Source of the DNA: Clostridium thermobutyricum
GTDB lineage: Bacteria > Bacillota > Clostridia > Ch29
Reading direction: 5' to 3'
NCBI GenBank assembly: GCA_016842005.1
Contig: JAENYD010000002.1
Span: forward strand, 124,001-188,000
DNA length: 64,000 nucleotides
Below are positions 4,429 through 60,768 of the stretch, piece after piece (position 1 is the first letter of the stretch; every line of letters begins with the position of its first letter). Below the pieces are notes generated by a model. The model was not told the DNA's origin. It was given only the letters and a program-made list of their open reading frames with translations, and did not search any database. Both the position numbers and the translations under genes were made by a program.

Positions 4429-4473
4429 TGGCGATGCAGCACACCGCACCTTCCCTCCGAAGGCCAAGCATTG

Positions 4474-4625
4474 AGCCTTAAGGCAGGTTTCCTGGCTTGC
4501 GATTCATCCTTCACCCGGCCTTCCCGTTTCCAGTGGCTATTCGGGCCTGTCATCGCTTACAGTAGCGGGGGCTGCAACGGATTCTCACCGTTTTCCCTAT
4601 TATCCCGTAAAGGGTCCATAAGGCT
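4474..4625 (-). promoter_or_regulatory. Cobalamin riboswitch (AdoCbl aptamer)
   Basis: Reading the minus strand, the conserved blocks occur in order: TAATAGGGAA, CGGTGAGAATCCG, GCAGCCCCCGCTACTGTAA, GCCACTG, GGGAAGG, GGATGAATCG and the B12 box AAGCCAGGAAACCTGCC. The closing helix P1 is AGCCTTA (4625-4619) with TAAGGCT (4480-4474). This is the known cobalamin riboswitch class (Rfam RF00174). It stands in front of btuFCD and should shut off transport when AdoCbl is plentiful. Confidence 0.95.
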
Positions 4626-4642
4626 GTGATATTTGGTTTTCG

Positions 4643-14450: not shown

Positions 14451-14548
14451 TGTCAGGGGGACGGTTCTTCTGACAATGTTGTCAGAAGAACCGTCCCCCT
14501 GACAGAGAAGAACCGTCCCCCTGACAGAGAAGAACCGTCCCCCTGACA
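14451..14548. repeat. Small REP/MITE-like inverted and direct repeat element
   Basis: A perfect 25-bp inverted repeat (14451-14475 and 14480-14504, 4-nt loop) with core GGGGGACGGTTCTTCTG is followed by two further 22-bp direct copies of the right arm ending at 14526 and 14548. The unit resembles dispersed GGGGACGGTTC repeats known from clostridial genomes and linked to REP-associated transposases. No transposase is present here. Confidence 0.85.
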
Positions 14549-14567
14549 ATGGAAGAAAATGGTGTGC

Positions 14568-31125: not shown

Positions 31126-31230
31126 ACCTGTATTCCGGGAATGGCAGTATTTTGGAAAAATACAAAAAATTCAGCTTATACGCAACTTATAAAGAAGGAA
31201 TTTGATTATTTATATAGAAAAAATATATAT

Positions 31231-31316
31231 ACAAAGGCAAACCTGCTAAAAGGCAGGGGCGCAAAGCCACGGGCCTAAGGCAATAAGGGGAGTTGCTATG
31301 GTAGCCGGGTTGCTGG
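31231..31316 (+). promoter_or_regulatory. c-di-GMP-I (GEMM-I) riboswitch
   Basis: The sequence AAAGGCAAACCTGCTAAAAG, then GGGGCGCAAAGCCACGGGCC and, later, ATGGTAGCCGGGTTGC match the class I c-di-GMP aptamer (Rfam RF01051) almost base for base. A possible promoter is TTGATT (31202-31207), 16 nt, TATATA (31224-31229). A terminator follows and then a GGDEF/EAL gene. Confidence 0.95.
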
Positions 31317-31332
31317 AATATTCAGGAGATAA

Positions 31333-31373: not shown

Positions 31374-31417
31374 TAATTTTCCGGGTAGCTGTGAGGCATT
31401 ACAGGGGGGAGATGCAC

Positions 31418-34400
31418 ATGTCTGGTGGGGGACGCATGAAACCAGGGGGTCACTATTTCAAAAAAGGGAAGCTTGATAAAAGTGCAGTTCTCGTTCTGCT
31501 TATAGTCTCCTGCATCGGTATGATGTGTTATTTTACCTTTGTGAGGAGAATACACCTGATATATACTCATTTCTTCTACATCCCCATAGTATTTTCAGGC
31601 TTTTTCTGGGGAAGGAAAAGTATCTGGGTAGCCGTTATTCTGGGTATATGTCTGTTATTGCCCTATACTGTTTTGGATTTCTCACCGGAACTTTTGGCAG
31701 GAGATATCCTGCGGGCGGCAATATTTGTTGTAGTCGCTGCCATTACCGGTTCCTTAAGGGAGTACAGCCTGTATTACGATAAGAGATTTTCGGACATCAT
31801 AGAGAGGAACCCGATACCGACCTTTGTGATTGATAAAGACCACACCATTACCCATTTTAACAGTGCCTGCGAGGTTATAACGGGTTTTTCGGCAAAAGAT
31901 ATGATTGGTACGGCTAACCAGTGGATGCTTTTTTATAAAAGAGAAAGGCCGGTGCTGGTGGATTATATTGTAGACGGTGCCGACCCGAAGGACATTCTGG
32001 AAGAATATAAGGATATAAAACTGTCTTCTGCAAAAGATGGTTATGAGGGAGAGGCCTTCAGTAAAAACATGGGAGAGAACGGCCGGTGGATTTATGTAAA
32101 TGCCGCGCCCATTAAATATGCCGATGGGGAAATTATAGGGGCTATACAAACCATGATAGACATAACCGACCAGAAAAAGGCGGAAAATGAACTCAGTTTG
32201 CAGAAGGCGTATTTCCAGCAGCTTTTTGAAAACTCGCCCGAAGCAATTGTTATGCTGGACAATAAAGACAGAGCAATGGACATAAACAGGGAATTCGAGG
32301 AAATATTCCAGTATTCACTGGATGAAATAAAAGGCTGTTACCTCAATGACATAATAGTACCGGGACACCTGGCTGAAGAGGCCTCAGTCCTATCCAACGC
32401 AGTGTTCGATGGCAAGGTCATCAGGAGGGAAAGCATAAGAATGCGGAAGGATGGGAGTCTTGTAAATGTCTCCATACTGGGATGCCCCATTATCGTGAAC
32501 AACGAGCAGGTGGGCATATACGGCATATACAGGGACATCACCGCTCAAAAGCTGGTTGAGCAGGCCCTCCAGGAAAGCGAGGAGCGTTACCGCAAACTGT
32601 TCGAACTCTCACCCGACAGTATTTATGTACATACCGACGGTATAATAGTATTTGCAAATCCGGCGGCGGCGAAATTACTGGGGGTATCCAGTCCCGACGA
32701 ACTCGTGGGAAAGCCCATATTGGATTTTATGCATCCTGACTTTCATGAAATTGCTGAACAGAGGATGCATCAGGTGCAGGAGGATGGGAGAGATGTGCCC
32801 CTGCTGGAGGAAAGGCTCGTCCGGGCTGACCGAACGGTTGTGGACACAGAGGTAGCGTCAATATCCCTGCCCTATGAAGGAATGAGAATGGTATTAAGCG
32901 TTTTCCGCGATATCACAGAACGGAAACGGGCAGAAAGGGAAATCAATCTTCAGAAGGCGTATTTCCAGCAGCTTTTCGAGAATTCCCCCGAGGCAATAGC
33001 CATGATGGACAATGAAGACCGTATAATCAATATAAACAGGGAATTCCATAAGCTTTTCCAGTATTCCATTGAAGAAATAAAGGGCTGCTATATTAACGAC
33101 ATTATTGTTCCCGAACACCTGGCTGACGAGGCATCAGAGGTATCTGACACCGTTATCCGGGGAGACTTTATTCAGAAGGAGACCGTGAGGAAGAGGAAAG
33201 ACGGAAGCTATGTAGACGTGTCCATTCTGAGATGTCCCATAGTGGTTGATGAAAGGCAGGTAGGGGGCTATGTTATATACAGGGATATTACAGAGCGTAA
33301 GCGTAGAGAAGAGATTATTAAATATCAGGCTTGTCACGACATACTGACCGGGCTACCCAACCGGGTCCTGTTCAATGACCATCTGGCCGGGGCGCTGGCA
33401 GATGCCTGTAATAACAGTAATATGACGGCCGTGATGTTCCTGGACCTGGATAAATTCAAGAATATTAACGACACTCTGGGACATGCCATAGGGGATGAAC
33501 TGCTCATTGAGGTTGGACGCAGGCTGAAAGGTCTTATTCGTCAGGTGGATATCGTTGCCCGTATGGGCGGGGATGAATTTACCATACTTTTGCCCGGTAT
33601 TTCAGGGGAAGAGGAGATAACCAAGGTGGCCCAGAGGATAATAGATGCCTTTCACTGGCCCTTCACGGTGCAAGGACGGGAATTATACATAACCACGAGT
33701 ATCGGTATAAGTGTTTATCCGGTGGACGGCGGCGATGTGAAAACCCTTCTCAAAAATGCCGATATCGCCATGTACAGGGCTAAAGAGATGGGTAGAAATA
33801 ATTTTCAGTTTTTTGCTTCGGATTTAAGCAGCGCCAGTTTGGAACACTTCAGTCTCACAAATGACCTGAGGCATGCCCTGGAGAGGGAGGAGTTTGAAAT
33901 CCACTATCAGCCCATAGTAGATATTACAGCCAACAGGATTTCGGGTATGGAAGCCCTGATCCGCTGGCGACACCCCGGCAGGGGGCTGATTTATCCTGTT
34001 GAGTTTATTCCCCTGGCCGAAGAGACCGGTTTTATAATTCCTATCGGCGAATGGGTACTGCGTAATGCCTGTGCCCAGAACAGGAAATGGCAGAAGGCGG
34101 GATATTCTTTCCTTAAGGTGGCTGTAAATCTTTCGGTACTGCAGCTCCGTCACCATAACCTGGTTGAGACGGTGACCGGCATTCTTCACGAGACCGGGCT
34201 TGACCCCCGCTGTCTGGAACTGGAGATCACCGAGAGCACTGTTATGCAGGACCTGGATTACAGTATAATGATGCTGCAGAACCTGAAAGACCTGGGTGTT
34301 CGGATTTCCCTGGACGATTTCGGTGCTGGCTGTTCTTCCCTGAGTTATCTGAAATATTTTCCCCTTGATAATCTGAAAATAAGCCAGTCCTTTATTCATT

Positions 34401-34621
34401 GTCTGGATAAAGATCAAAAGGATGGGGCAATTGTCGGTTCTATTATTGATATGGCCCACCGGTTAAGTCTCAGAACAATAGCCGAAGGGGTGGAAACCGA
34501 AAAACAGATTGCCTTTCTCAGGCATCACAAGTGTGACTGTATGCAGGGAAATATTTTCAGTAAACCGCTGCCTGCCCGTAAGTTCGGGGAGATGCTTGAA
34601 AAGGATAAGCGTTTGTATTGA
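31418..34621 (+). CDS. Membrane PAS-GGDEF-EAL c-di-GMP turnover protein
   Basis: About 1067 residues. The N-terminus has three to four membrane helices (about 15-105). Four PAS domains follow (about 120-245, 255-375, 385-500, 510-630); the second and fourth are near copies (both begin LQKAYFQQLFENSPEAI). The GGDEF domain has an intact GGDEF (717-721) and inhibitory RxxD (RQVD, five residues before), and the EAL domain has intact EALIRW (845-850). It could both make and degrade c-di-GMP in response to PAS signals. GGGGGGAG precedes ATG 31418; GTG 31391 is a longer alternative. Its mRNA carries a c-di-GMP riboswitch, implying feedback on its own expression. Confidence 0.93.
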   Translation: MSGGGRMKPGGHYFKKGKLDKSAVLVLLIVSCIGMMCYFTFVRRIHLIYTHFFYIPIVFSGFFWGRKSIWVAVILGICLLLPYTVLDFSPELLAGDILRAAIFVVVAAITGSLREYSLYYDKRFSDIIERNPIPTFVIDKDHTITHFNSACEVITGFSAKDMIGTANQWMLFYKRERPVLVDYIVDGADPKDILEEYKDIKLSSAKDGYEGEAFSKNMGENGRWIYVNAAPIKYADGEIIGAIQTMIDITDQKKAENELSLQKAYFQQLFENSPEAIVMLDNKDRAMDINREFEEIFQYSLDEIKGCYLNDIIVPGHLAEEASVLSNAVFDGKVIRRESIRMRKDGSLVNVSILGCPIIVNNEQVGIYGIYRDITAQKLVEQALQESEERYRKLFELSPDSIYVHTDGIIVFANPAAAKLLGVSSPDELVGKPILDFMHPDFHEIAEQRMHQVQEDGRDVPLLEERLVRADRTVVDTEVASISLPYEGMRMVLSVFRDITERKRAEREINLQKAYFQQLFENSPEAIAMMDNEDRIININREFHKLFQYSIEEIKGCYINDIIVPEHLADEASEVSDTVIRGDFIQKETVRKRKDGSYVDVSILRCPIVVDERQVGGYVIYRDITERKRREEIIKYQACHDILTGLPNRVLFNDHLAGALADACNNSNMTAVMFLDLDKFKNINDTLGHAIGDELLIEVGRRLKGLIRQVDIVARMGGDEFTILLPGISGEEEITKVAQRIIDAFHWPFTVQGRELYITTSIGISVYPVDGGDVKTLLKNADIAMYRAKEMGRNNFQFFASDLSSASLEHFSLTNDLRHALEREEFEIHYQPIVDITANRISGMEALIRWRHPGRGLIYPVEFIPLAEETGFIIPIGEWVLRNACAQNRKWQKAGYSFLKVAVNLSVLQLRHHNLVETVTGILHETGLDPRCLELEITESTVMQDLDYSIMMLQNLKDLGVRISLDDFGAGCSSLSYLKYFPLDNLKISQSFIHCLDKDQKDGAIVGSIIDMAHRLSLRTIAEGVETEKQIAFLRHHKCDCMQGNIFSKPLPARKFGEMLEKDKRLY

Positions 34622-34685: not shown

Positions 34686-34714
34686 AAAACCAGTGCAGCT
34701 GGTTTTTTGTTTTT
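34686..34714 (+). terminator. Rho-independent terminator
   Basis: AAAACCAG pairs with CTGGTTTT over TGCAG, followed by a T-run; it ends the GGDEF/EAL transcript. Confidence 0.75.
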
Positions 34715-34886
34715 CAGGGTGTCTATTCAATAGTAAATTTCCTGCACAGGGAGGAATAATAGCAGAGGAACGGTAAAATGCTAAAAACAGACTATTCAGA
34801 GAATATTTTTACAAAATCATTAATTTTTGATAATCTGTTAATATAAGATAACGAAGATGCAGTTTTAGATTAACCACAGCATAAAA

Positions 34887-34918
34887 AAGTTATACACAAT
34901 ACCCATTTTGTATAACTT
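34887..34918 (+). repeat. Left inverted recombinase-site candidate
   Basis: The site is built of 11-bp perfect inverted arms AAAGTTATACA (34886-34896) and TGTATAACTTT (34909-34919) around a 12-bp core containing ATACCC. Its 17-bp part ATACCCATTTTGTATAA (34899-34915) is repeated exactly, in inverse orientation, at 35805-35821. The layout resembles tyrosine-recombinase core sites. Confidence 0.75.
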
Positions 34919-34951
34919 TAAGGATTTGACGGACAGAGACCTGTCTTTGGG

Positions 34952-34977
34952 AAACGGCCTGAGCAGGCGGTTTTTTT
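34952..34977 (+). terminator. Terminator-like hairpin inside the inverted-site segment
   Basis: AAAC-g-GCC and GGC-g-GTTT enclose TGAGCA, followed by TTTTTTTG. It would stop any plus-strand transcript entering the segment from the left site, about 40 nt downstream of it. Confidence 0.55.
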
Positions 34978-35195
34978 GTTTTAATATTCAGGGCATAACA
35001 GCTGTCAGGCCTATTCTATTAATGCTGTTTCATGTTCTGGGACCCGATCCATTTTTTATTTACTCCACCGAACAATTCGACAAGTTATCTAGAATTCCTG
35101 CAAATTTTTCAAATTTTTCGGTTTTTTATCCTGTTTTTTAATATAACCGAAAGAGACTACCACAAGTTCTATATATTCACTATGATGATAGATAT
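34978..35195. other. AT-rich non-coding part of the candidate invertible segment
   Basis: 218 bp downstream of the recombinase gene. I see no gene with a ribosome-binding site and no known RNA. The stretch between the GGDEF/EAL terminator and the left site (34715-34886) is likewise empty. Confidence 0.4.
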
Positions 35196-35786
35196 TTATA
35201 CCAGCATATTCCGCTTTTTCAGTTTCTTATACATTTCTTCCTGCTGGGCAGTCGTAAACTGGAAGTAAATAAAGGTGTTATTGATATTCTTATGTCCTAT
35301 GTAGTACTGCACTTCCTTTAGATCCAATCCGCTTTCCGCCAAATGAACCGCCACTGAATGCTTGAGGGAGTGGAAATGCCATTTATCCCTGGTCGCTACT
35401 TTTCCTTTTTCACAGTACTTCTTGATAAGCTTATCCAGCATCTGCCGGGATATAGGTCTTTTTTCCTGGCTGGTGAACAAAAAGTCCGAAGCTTTAATAT
35501 CGTTTTCCATTATGTACCTGTTTAGAAATTTAACCGTCTTCATATCAAGTCTTATGGTGTTGTTCTGGGAACCCTTTAGTCTGCGACAGTACATCTCGCC
35601 TCTTTGCTGGTTAAAGTCTGAGGCCATTATAAGGCCAATTTCGGATGCTCTTAATCCACATCTGTATGCTACCCTGAAAATACATAGATTTCTTAGCCAG
35701 TATTTGTCTTCCTCTTTTGCATCTTCAATGGTACGGAAAAGTTTTTTTATTTCCTTCTGCGTAAAAAATTTTATTTCTTCCATCAT
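35196..35786 (-). CDS. Small tyrosine recombinase (catalytic domain only, FimB/FimE size)
   Basis: The 196-residue protein is a bare catalytic domain of the tyrosine recombinase family, without the N-terminal core-binding domain, the same build as the FimB/FimE invertases. Catalytic residues are Arg46 (GLRASE), Lys71 (RRLKG), His139 and Lys142 (HSLKH; Lys replaces the usual Arg, as in several small firmicute relatives), His165 (GHKN) and nucleophile Tyr174 (FIYFQ). AGGAGG precedes ATGATG. The gene is enclosed by two related sites in inverted orientation (34887-34918, 35802-35833); the right one overlaps its own probable -10 TATAAT (35809-35804). This suggests a self-contained DNA inversion module. 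Confidence 0.87.
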   Translation of the reverse strand: MMEEIKFFTQKEIKKLFRTIEDAKEEDKYWLRNLCIFRVAYRCGLRASEIGLIMASDFNQQRGEMYCRRLKGSQNNTIRLDMKTVKFLNRYIMENDIKASDFLFTSQEKRPISRQMLDKLIKKYCEKGKVATRDKWHFHSLKHSVAVHLAESGLDLKEVQYYIGHKNINNTFIYFQFTTAQQEEMYKKLKKRNMLV

Positions 35787-35801
35787 ATTACCTCCTCGTC
35801 T

Positions 35802-35833
35802 AAATTATACAAAATGGGTATAATATCTAACTT
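35802..35833 (-). repeat. Right inverted recombinase-site candidate
   Basis: Read on the minus strand it matches the left site at 27 of 33 positions, including AAGTTA at the outer end and the full 17-bp ATACCCATTTTGTATAA. It lies between the recombinase start codon and cheW and contains TATAAT-like -10 boxes pointing both ways (35809-35804 minus, 35819-35824 plus). Confidence 0.75.
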
Positions 35834-35955
35834 ATGAAATGTCGAATGTTGACGAATTTAATATACCAAAAAATTACATCGACGTAAAGTTAAAGTATAT
35901 AAATTAAGTAAATTAATGTAATACAAAAAAATAATTGTTTGAAGGGAGGGGTATT

Positions 35956-36417
35956 ATGCAAGAAAGGCAATTGGTGGTTTTCAAACTGGCCGAAGGAGAA
36001 TATGGCATTGATATAATGATGGTTAAAGAGATTATCAGGTACCAGAAAACGGTAAGAATACCTGACGCACCGGGGTTTATTGAAGGGATAATAAACTACA
36101 GAAAGAGTGCGGTTCCCATAATAGATTTGAACAGGAGATTGCATCTGGTAGAAAATAATATATCTGATGGCACCAGAATAATAATTGTTAATCTGGATGA
36201 AAAGCAGGTGGGATTTAAGGTGGACCAGGTTGAGGAAGTTTTAAGGATTGCTGAAGAAAGTATAGAGCAGGTGTCTGATATTATGTCAGATATTGACAAC
36301 AGGTACATAATGGGTATAGGAAAACTTGGTGACAGACTTATTGTTCTCCTGGATTTGTTTAAAGTACTGACCGAAAATGAGAAAGAAGAACTGAAAGAAA
36401 TATTACCATCCATATAA
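35956..36417 (+). CDS. cheW: Chemotaxis coupling protein CheW (second copy)
   Basis: This 153-residue CheW protein is a close paralogue of the one at 14689 (same length; shared blocks such as EGEYGIDIM and KEIIRYQK). It should couple a receptor to CheA. GGGAGGGG 7 nt before ATG 35956 decides the start over an in-frame ATG at 35935. It lies 220 bp before a chemoreceptor gene. No SigD-type promoter like that of the first copy is seen; the region upstream is AT-rich and begins with the right recombinase site, so inversion of the neighbouring segment could affect its expression. Confidence 0.92.
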   Translation: MQERQLVVFKLAEGEYGIDIMMVKEIIRYQKTVRIPDAPGFIEGIINYRKSAVPIIDLNRRLHLVENNISDGTRIIIVNLDEKQVGFKVDQVEEVLRIAEESIEQVSDIMSDIDNRYIMGIGKLGDRLIVLLDLFKVLTENEKEELKEILPSI

Positions 36418-36636: not shown

Positions 36637-38601
36637 ATGAAAAGTTTAAGGCTGAAAATTTTGATTCCAATACTAATTGTAGCTGTCGCCGGTCTTGCAG
36701 GCGTGGCTCTCAGCGGATATTTCCAGGCAAAAGAAATAGTAGAAACTGATATTGAGCATCTTGCTTCATCTGAGACTGATAAGCTGGTATCACAAATTGA
36801 CGGTAAACTCATGCTCATGAAAAAAGAAGTGCAAATGCTGGCCGATACAGATGCGGTCAGGGCCAGAGATATGGGAATGCTAAGACAGTACATATCAAGC
36901 AGGGAAAATATGTTTGAAAAATATGAGTCACTTTTTATAGCCGACAGAACAGGTAGCTATATTACAATTACAGGAAAAACAGGCAGTATTGCCGACAGGG
37001 ATTATTTTTACAGAGTGATGGATGGTGAAACAGTTGTAGAAGACCCTCTTGTATCTAAGGAAACCGGTAATCGGGTTATAGTTATCGCCAGTCCTGTAAA
37101 GGACAATACCGGCAGTATAATCGGGCTGATTGCCGGAACCGTTGAATTCAGCCAAGTATCAGATTTAATCCGCAGTGCCAGGCTGGGTGATACCGGGTAT
37201 GCATACATGATCAACCGGGAAGGCATAGTTGTAGACCATCCCCAAAAAGAGCTCCTCTCTACCAACCTGCTTCAGCATGAGACTCAGAGTCTGGTGGAAA
37301 TTACGGAAGAAATGGTTAACGGGGAGAAAGGGGTGGGATATTACGAATTTGAAGGTATAAAGAAAATAGCAGCCTATGCGCCTTTGGAAACATCAGATTG
37401 GGTTATGGCTATGACTACCACATACAGCGAGGTGGCGAAAAATGTAAACAGGCTAAGGAACAATGCGGCAATAATAGGGATTATTGCAGTATGCCTTATG
37501 ATAGTAATAACCATTTTGCTTGTTAATAATACGGTAAAACCGCTGGTTGAAATGGCCCGTATGACTCAGGAAGTGGCAAAAGGGAATCTCCAAACCAGGG
37601 TCAGTGTGACCACACATGATGAAGCAGGCCTTTTAGCCCGGAATTTTAACCAGATGATTGAAAGTATGCGAGAGCTGCTCCTTGAGATGAAAGAAACCGG
37701 GATGACTGTAGCATCTTCAGCCCAGCAAATGCTGGCCTCTTCAGAGGAAGCCAGCAGGGCATCCGAAGAGATTACGCAGACTATTCAGGACCTGGCCCAG
37801 GGGTCCACCGAACAGGCTGCAGCTGCTCAAAACGGGAGTCAGACGGTGGAAGAGCTTGTGGCAGGATTAAATCAGATTGCCATAAACATGGCCGACTCAG
37901 AAAAGTTGACTGTAGAGGCAAACAAAGCCGTAGAATCAGGAGTGAAAACGGTAGAATACCAAAGGGAGAAGATGGTAGAAAATAAACAGGCAGCAGTGAA
38001 TGTAGGTGAAAGAATATTCGAGTTATCCGATAAGTCCCAGGAAATCGGCCAGATTATTGAAGCCATAAGTGATATAGCAGACCAAACAAATCTACTGGCT
38101 TTGAATGCAGCCATTGAAGCGGCCAGGGCCGGTGAACAGGGCAGAGGATTTGCCGTTGTTGCGGAGGAGGTAAGAAAACTGGCGGAGGAAGCCAGCCTCT
38201 CCACTCAAAAGATAAGTGCCCTCATCAGACAGATACAGCAGGGGATAGAACTTGCTGTCGAGGAAATGCGTAAGGCAGAGGTCATTGTAGGAGAACAGGA
38301 AAAGGCTGTGGACAGCACAACAAAAGCATTCGATAATGTTATGGACATTATACGCGGTGTAACAAAACAGGTACAGGAAGTCTCTAAAGCTGTAGAATCA
38401 TTGAATGAGGGTGCATCATCCACAGGGGCGGAGATACAGAATATTGCCAGTGTAGCCCAGGAAAATGCTGCAGGAACCGAAGAAGTGGCCGCTTCTGCGG
38501 AAGAACAGACTGCTGCCATTCAGCAGATGGCAAGTTCAGCGGAAAATCTGGCAGGTGTGGCTCAAAAACTTCAGGAAGCTATTCAGAGGTTCAAAGTATA
38601 A
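36637..38601 (+). CDS. Methyl-accepting chemotaxis protein (dCache sensor)
   Basis: The 654-residue receptor has a membrane helix at about 8-28, an extracellular dCache domain (about 35-275, with SDRDYF-type pocket sequence [10 protein letters not shown]), a second helix (about 282-302), HAMP and a full signalling domain ([20 protein letters not shown] at the tip). It is a close paralogue of the receptor at 40285, from the MKSLRLKIL start onward, but the sensing domains differ, suggesting different ligands. AGGGGGAATGCAAT precedes the ATG. Preceded by cheW and followed by a terminator at 38702. Confidence 0.93.
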
Positions 38602-60524: not shown

Positions 60525-60768
60525 ATCCGATTAAAGGCTGTGAAGGAGAGGAGTAAACAGGCAAAAGCCTTCAGAGAGGGCATTGTGTGGTGGAAGATGC
60601 CCGGCAGGAGTCTGTTGAAGGTAGCTCCGGAGCTGTCCGGCTGAAACAGCAGTAAGCCGGATCGGTTAACCGTTAACTGAATGAGGGCCCGGAAACCGGG
60701 AAATAAGGTGGTACCGCGAAATAACCTTCGTCCTTTTACGGACGGGGGTTTCAGTTTTTTTTGGAGCA
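60525..60768 (+). promoter_or_regulatory. T-box leader (tRNA-Val specific)
   Basis: The leader has the AGTA box in GGAGAGGAGTAAAC, the AG-bulge/AGAGAGGG part of stem I, the specifier GTA (60621-60623, Val) after GAAG, the T-box AAGGTGGTACCGCG (60705-60718), and a terminator stem CCTTCGTCC/GGACGGGGG with TTTTTTTT. Uncharged tRNA-Val should pair with it and prevent termination, turning on valS. Confidence 0.93.

Follow-up and report, generated by a model that had tools for sequence, protein, structure and literature searches.

A candidate self-enclosed DNA inversion module with a small tyrosine recombinase beside c-di-GMP and chemotaxis genes in Clostridium thermobutyricum

Invertible switches in C. 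difficile precede c-di-GMP phosphodiesterases and flagellar genes (pdcB/Cdi2, pdcC/Cdi3, and flg/Cdi4), and across the Clostridia there is a trend for invertible sites to lie near signalling and chemotaxis genes (PMC5386303, PMC9286219, PMC5903667). The pdcB switch is an invertible promoter whose recombinase was not identified (PMC9286219). An invertible segment that encloses its recombinase, 844 bp long and located by fimbrial genes, has been published for Providencia stuartii (PMC5903667). In single-recombinase Xer/dif systems, namely XerS/difSL and XerH/difH, the dif site lies near the recombinase gene (PMC5357621).

The locus described here lies in a 64,000-nucleotide stretch of C. thermobutyricum DNA (the window) and shares features with each of these systems. 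As in C. difficile, the arrangement suggests site-specific inversion beside c-di-GMP and motility genes. However, the C. difficile segments are about 0.15–0.2 kb long and carry no recombinase, RecV acting from elsewhere. The C. difficile flg repeats as printed, AAGTT(A/G)CTAT(A/T)TTACAAAAAA, also differ from the motif of the window family. No Clostridioides locus is among the 49 family loci from the scan of named genomes. In the fim switch of E. coli, FimB and FimE are single-domain tyrosine recombinases of about 200 aa, encoded next to a short invertible promoter. Clostridium relatives of the window recombinase match this arrangement closely, whereas in the window the recombinase gene sits within the segment and its product falls far short of the FimB/FimE cut-offs. 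Hin of Salmonella and the P. stuartii segment resemble the window in that the invertible stretch, about 0.9 kb long, includes the recombinase gene; Hin, however, belongs to the serine recombinases and its segment has an internal promoter, and the P. stuartii segment lies by fimbrial genes. The likeness to Xer/dif consists of a palindromic site adjoining the recombinase gene and of similar arms in the Xer-linked palindrome of the host. Unlike those systems, the window recombinase has no N-terminal domain, and its two sites are inverted and separated by 0.9 kb; the expected outcome is therefore inversion rather than dimer resolution. The locus is likely to be a self-contained phase-variation module in which the recombinase would invert about 0.9 kb that includes its own gene, a change that may couple the level of recombinase to chemoreceptor expression.

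Recombinase and paired sites

The following features (window coordinates) define the locus:

31226–31317, + strand: c-di-GMP-I riboswitch upstream of the GGDEF-EAL gene, outside the segment (RF01051, 81.5 bits)
31391–34621, + strand: PAS-GGDEF-EAL c-di-GMP enzyme, left of the segment (PF00990, PF00563, PAS)
34686–34706, + strand: GGDEF-EAL terminator, preceding the left site (terminator scan, fold)
34887–34918, + strand: left recombination site, a near-perfect palindrome, AAGTTATACACAAT-ACCC-ATTTTGTATAACTT
34903–35817, no strand: segment expected to invert, judged from the shared core (cut position approximate)
35196–35786, − strand: tyrosine recombinase of 196 aa, catalytic domain only (PF00589, 3.7e-36; family alignment)
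35802–35833, − strand: right recombination site, in the opposite orientation to the left site, with the same core ATACCCA and one degenerate arm
35956–36417, + strand: cheW, first gene right of the segment (PF01584, 5.1e-37)
36637–38601, + strand: dCache chemoreceptor, MCP (PF02743, PF00672, PF00015)

The domain matches bear out an earlier description, made from the letters of the window (the sequence-only reading), of a c-di-GMP enzyme gene before the segment and of cheW and a chemoreceptor after it. They likewise confirm a 196-residue tyrosine recombinase between the sites, whose frame is intact and which reaches 124.9 bits against PF00589 (cut-off 27.1). The FimB/FimE build ascribed to this enzyme holds for its size and single domain, but the curated FimB and FimE models give 82.0 and 67.3 bits and do not reach their cut-offs of 221 and 222. 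Only the C-terminal part of the XerC/XerD models is matched. The next homolog in the same genome, full length, is 33% identical, and a search of viral contigs found no relative.

The conserved positions of the window recombinase are occupied by R46, K71, H139, K142, H165, and Y174, and all but K142 are invariant across 49 family members. Position 142 is usually arginine, the second catalytic arginine, which to our knowledge is nearly invariant in the tyrosine recombinase superfamily; lysine replaces it in 47 of the 49. A literature search for lysine at this position found nothing. Flipped elements in relatives, described below, argue for a catalytically active family despite the lysine.

The two sites form an inverted pair in which 27 of 32 nt match (84% complementary), with 883 nt between the arms. 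The sequence-only reading had counted 27 of 33; its inverted pair with 17 identical bases stands, and the count is corrected. The identical stretch, ATACCCATTTTGTATAA, occurs without mismatch in the 2.62-Mb genome only at these two sites, and near matches elsewhere fall within a coding frame (contig C6) and on the Xer-linked palindrome (C45). The left site is the near-perfect palindrome that had been proposed, its 15-nt arms being 93% complementary and separated by a 4-nt centre. Far less palindromic, the right site keeps the core and one arm, and it is placed just upstream of the recombinase start, as is the site in most family members with enough flanking sequence. When a site position model trained on Clostridium sites alone is scanned over both strands of the 64 kb, the left site ranks first at 19.3 bits (maximum of 8.2 in 20 shuffles), while the right site, at 7.0 bits, is too weak to stand alone.

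In simulated pairs (400-bp flanks with the local dinucleotide make-up), at least 17 exact bases were found in 1 of 5000. This frequency, the separately obtained match to the family motif, and the shared layout of the closest relative (G001) make it scarcely credible that a chance inverted repeat happens to lie beside an unrelated recombinase, although another exact inverted pair of 16 bp without evident role is found nearby. This second pair (35507–35522 and 36298–36313) joins the recombinase gene and cheW, encodes NRYIM in both, and is perhaps due to chance. A site-like TACATAATGGGTATA (36304–36318) overlaps it within cheW.

The low score of the right site is also what a decayed switch would leave behind, one that was once invertible and became locked in one orientation when the right site lost an arm. 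The segment has no clear internal promoter, and some Clostridium relatives retain only one site, both of which fit such a history. A locked switch is nevertheless unlikely, as the two sites agree fully over the 7-bp core and one entire arm, and the recombinase keeps an intact frame with the conserved residues of its family.

Relatives with flipped promoters and a self-enclosed branch

About 50 homologs were found in all, and the 49 loci of the named-genome scan are nearly all from Clostridium, one being the G001 contig. In 23 loci (22 from the named-genome scan and one from the genome search), the motif ACAAAATAAATATTTTGT occurs as an inverted pair upstream of the recombinase, one site at about 250 bp and the other at about 70 bp, with 120–170 bp separating them. 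Most of these elements sit between the recombinase and a divergent gene. The site model adds further pairs at L054, L056, and L061. The sequence-only reading had held that homologs lacking paired sites would speak against a switch; some homologs, including Clostridium relatives, do carry a single upstream site, but pairs are present in the 23 loci. Strand exchange by tyrosine recombinases requires an identical core in both sites. Within each locus the two sites carry one and the same 7-bp core (23 of 23), which varies between some loci; the agreement is partly built in because the pairs were found by similarity.

The best consensus promoter lies near one edge of the element in 21 of the 23 loci, directed toward the recombinase in 18 and toward the neighbour in 3; 2 loci are unclear. 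In C. puniceum and C. chromiireducens (L074/L079), the element aligns only when flipped (66 vs 17; shuffles at most 29), in a syntenic setting with recombinases that are 85% identical and two flanking proteins that are 67–69% identical. Both orientations of the promoter-only form thus exist between related species. The element of L063/L060 also aligns flipped (60 vs 24; shuffles at most 47), synteny being established for L074/L079 only. Contigs begin no more than 160 bp upstream of the recombinase match in 7 of the 49 loci, and an N gap separates the two sites in one assembly. Mixed orientations are the simple reading of these breaks, though not the only one.

Domains of c-di-GMP or chemotaxis proteins are encoded by 28 of 32 divergent neighbours (17 EAL, 2 HD-GYP, 8 MCP signalling, and 1 CheW). 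A local search of the genes at +2 to +5 found such domains in 5 of 150. At L034 (7837–8766), a chemoreceptor fragment without its sensor half directly follows a family recombinase and faces a full chemoreceptor across from it.

The order-wide search gave one close homolog, 71% identical, in G001. Its gene is likewise enclosed; the flanking inverted pair is perfect over 25 bp and ends in ATTTTGTATA. The segment, of 0.95 kb (L031 6556–7506), lies at an unrelated genomic place where the divergent neighbour is a PAS-HD-GYP gene. In the recombinase tree, the window and G001 enzymes form one group (100/98) that adjoins a group beside type I restriction genes. No other recombinase-enclosing motif pair was found within 2.5 kb in the wider family. 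The restriction-associated sister group (L026, L041, and L042) lies near genes that include hsdS. Inversion of hsdS was considered there and rejected: apart from a single site upstream of the recombinase, none was found nearby.

The unrelated position of the G001 module would suit a small mobile element with terminal inverted sites and no switch, as would two more distant homologs that lie among element-like genes with a single site. Such an element is very improbable, however, given one copy per genome and a steady family position beside c-di-GMP and chemotaxis genes that speaks for regulation in cis. The distant homologs (L102/L104 and L103/L105, in G749 and G441) are resolvase-like and have one palindromic site, GTCAAAAT..TTTTGAC, upstream. 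A possible history is that a single-site, resolvase-like enzyme became an invertase once a second, inverted site arose.

The G001 segment also contains a c-di-GMP-I riboswitch (L031 7318–7402) at its far end, pointing outwards and followed by a strong hairpin. Because of this outward orientation, inversion would, judging from the map, set the riboswitch before the HD-GYP gene. Near the Clostridium switches, c-di-GMP riboswitches were found in 0 of 22 loci, and the enclosed riboswitch is therefore so far particular to G001. A search of the window's own segment gave no credible riboswitch at E up to 10. Elsewhere, the window contains a cobalamin riboswitch (4465–4635, − strand) and a T-box leader (60531–60738, + strand). 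Several inverted copies of TGTCAGGGGGACGGTTCTTCT occur within 100 bp at 14451–14550, and a similar GGGACGGTTCTT hairpin is found in L031.

The resident Xer system offers another account of the sites. In six of six order genomes, a full-length Xer-like gene is immediately preceded by one perfect palindrome, TACAAAAT-N4-ATTTTGTA (G000:C45:111996–112015, and the same place in G001–G005, L088–L093). This pair is a candidate single-Xer/dif system, with the palindrome as the presumed dif; no convincing canonical Bacillus-type dif was found in the window's genome. A second intergenic palindrome, TTATACAAAATTAATCTTTTGTATAA (G000:C55:1832–1851, L095), has the same arms and another centre. The window left site equals the Xer-linked arms with one mismatch, and the right site does not match. 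The window sites could, on this account, be dif-like targets of the full-length Xer-like recombinase, with the small recombinase as a passenger or competitor. This is decidedly unlikely, since the same motif accompanies the small recombinase itself in Clostridium and the core bases differ (ACCC vs ATTC). In addition, one arm has drifted away from the resident perfect palindrome in the switch sites of G001, and likewise in the right site of the window.

A possible switch acting on the cheW-receptor unit

Inversion by the small recombinase remains the preferred reading, and three further features bear on what it would do to transcription:

34808–34836, + strand: candidate promoter left of the segment and directed into it, TTTACA-17-TAATCT with TG (weak consensus match)
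34949–34978, + strand: hairpin resembling a terminator, immediately interior to the left site, with an AAAC-GGCC stem followed by TTTTTTT
35860–35888, − strand: candidate fixed recombinase promoter, outside the segment, TTTACG-17-TG.TATATT (consensus match only)

The last of these replaces the earlier placement of the recombinase −10 box in the right site, as it is the better consensus promoter. A consensus scan found no strong outward promoter inside the segment. About 277 bp of non-coding DNA lie 3′ of the recombinase stop within the segment. The fold of 34919–34990 (+ strand) has −18.1 kcal/mol, only 1.5 sd below shuffles, and is of moderate stability; the hairpin was not picked up by a simple terminator scan. 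Read-through of the GGDEF-EAL transcript into cheW was considered and judged less likely because a terminator (34686–34706) precedes the left site.

In the proposed mechanism, the small tyrosine recombinase would bind both inverted sites and exchange strands within the identical core, and the 0.9 kb holding its own gene would invert. In the present orientation, the fixed promoter right of the segment would drive the recombinase, while rightward transcription from the left promoter would be stopped by the terminator at 34949–34978. After inversion, the recombinase would be parted from the right promoter, which would meet the turned terminator, and transcription from the left promoter would pass across the recombinase gene to cheW and the chemoreceptor gene. 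Such a switch would tie the recombinase level to chemoreceptor expression and would leave cells of one clone differing in chemotaxis. The Clostridium form departs from this: there the promoter flips and the genes stay, whereas the flipping part in the window and G001 would be the recombinase.

The inversion-module reading is supported by a family found beside inverted pairs of the same motif, by c-di-GMP and chemotaxis neighbours, and by both orientations among relatives. Confidence that the locus is an inversion module is accordingly high on comparative evidence, and the window recombinase can probably flip its own DNA segment. Confidence in the output on cheW and the receptor is moderate at best because it rests on consensus promoter matches, which in this region are not above chance in number. 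An effect of inversion on this unit is plausible and fits the anatomy. Since relatives in the Clostridia flip a promoter beside c-di-GMP or chemotaxis genes, the module most probably acts as a random on/off switch of motility-type behaviour.

A broader proposal is tentative, and doubtful in its full extent. The Clostridia family with lysine for the second arginine may be specialised for flipping c-di-GMP and chemotaxis genes, and the branch of the window and G001 may flip itself, parting the recombinase from a fixed promoter. In G001, this would move a c-di-GMP riboswitch before a phosphodiesterase gene, giving a switch that is both heritable and ligand-controlled.

The c-di-GMP and flagellar switches of C. 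difficile, the Clostridia trend, and recombinase-enclosing segments are already published. As far as the cited papers show, the recombinase family with its motif, the tight association with its targets, the self-flipping branch, and the enclosed riboswitch of G001 are new. The recombinase family, site motif, and targets are seen together across many Clostridia, and site recognition, catalysis with lysine, and the coupling of inversion to motility are therefore testable in simple plasmid systems. If true, the pairing of self-enclosure with a riboswitch in G001 would be a new way of joining a heritable switch to a metabolite signal.
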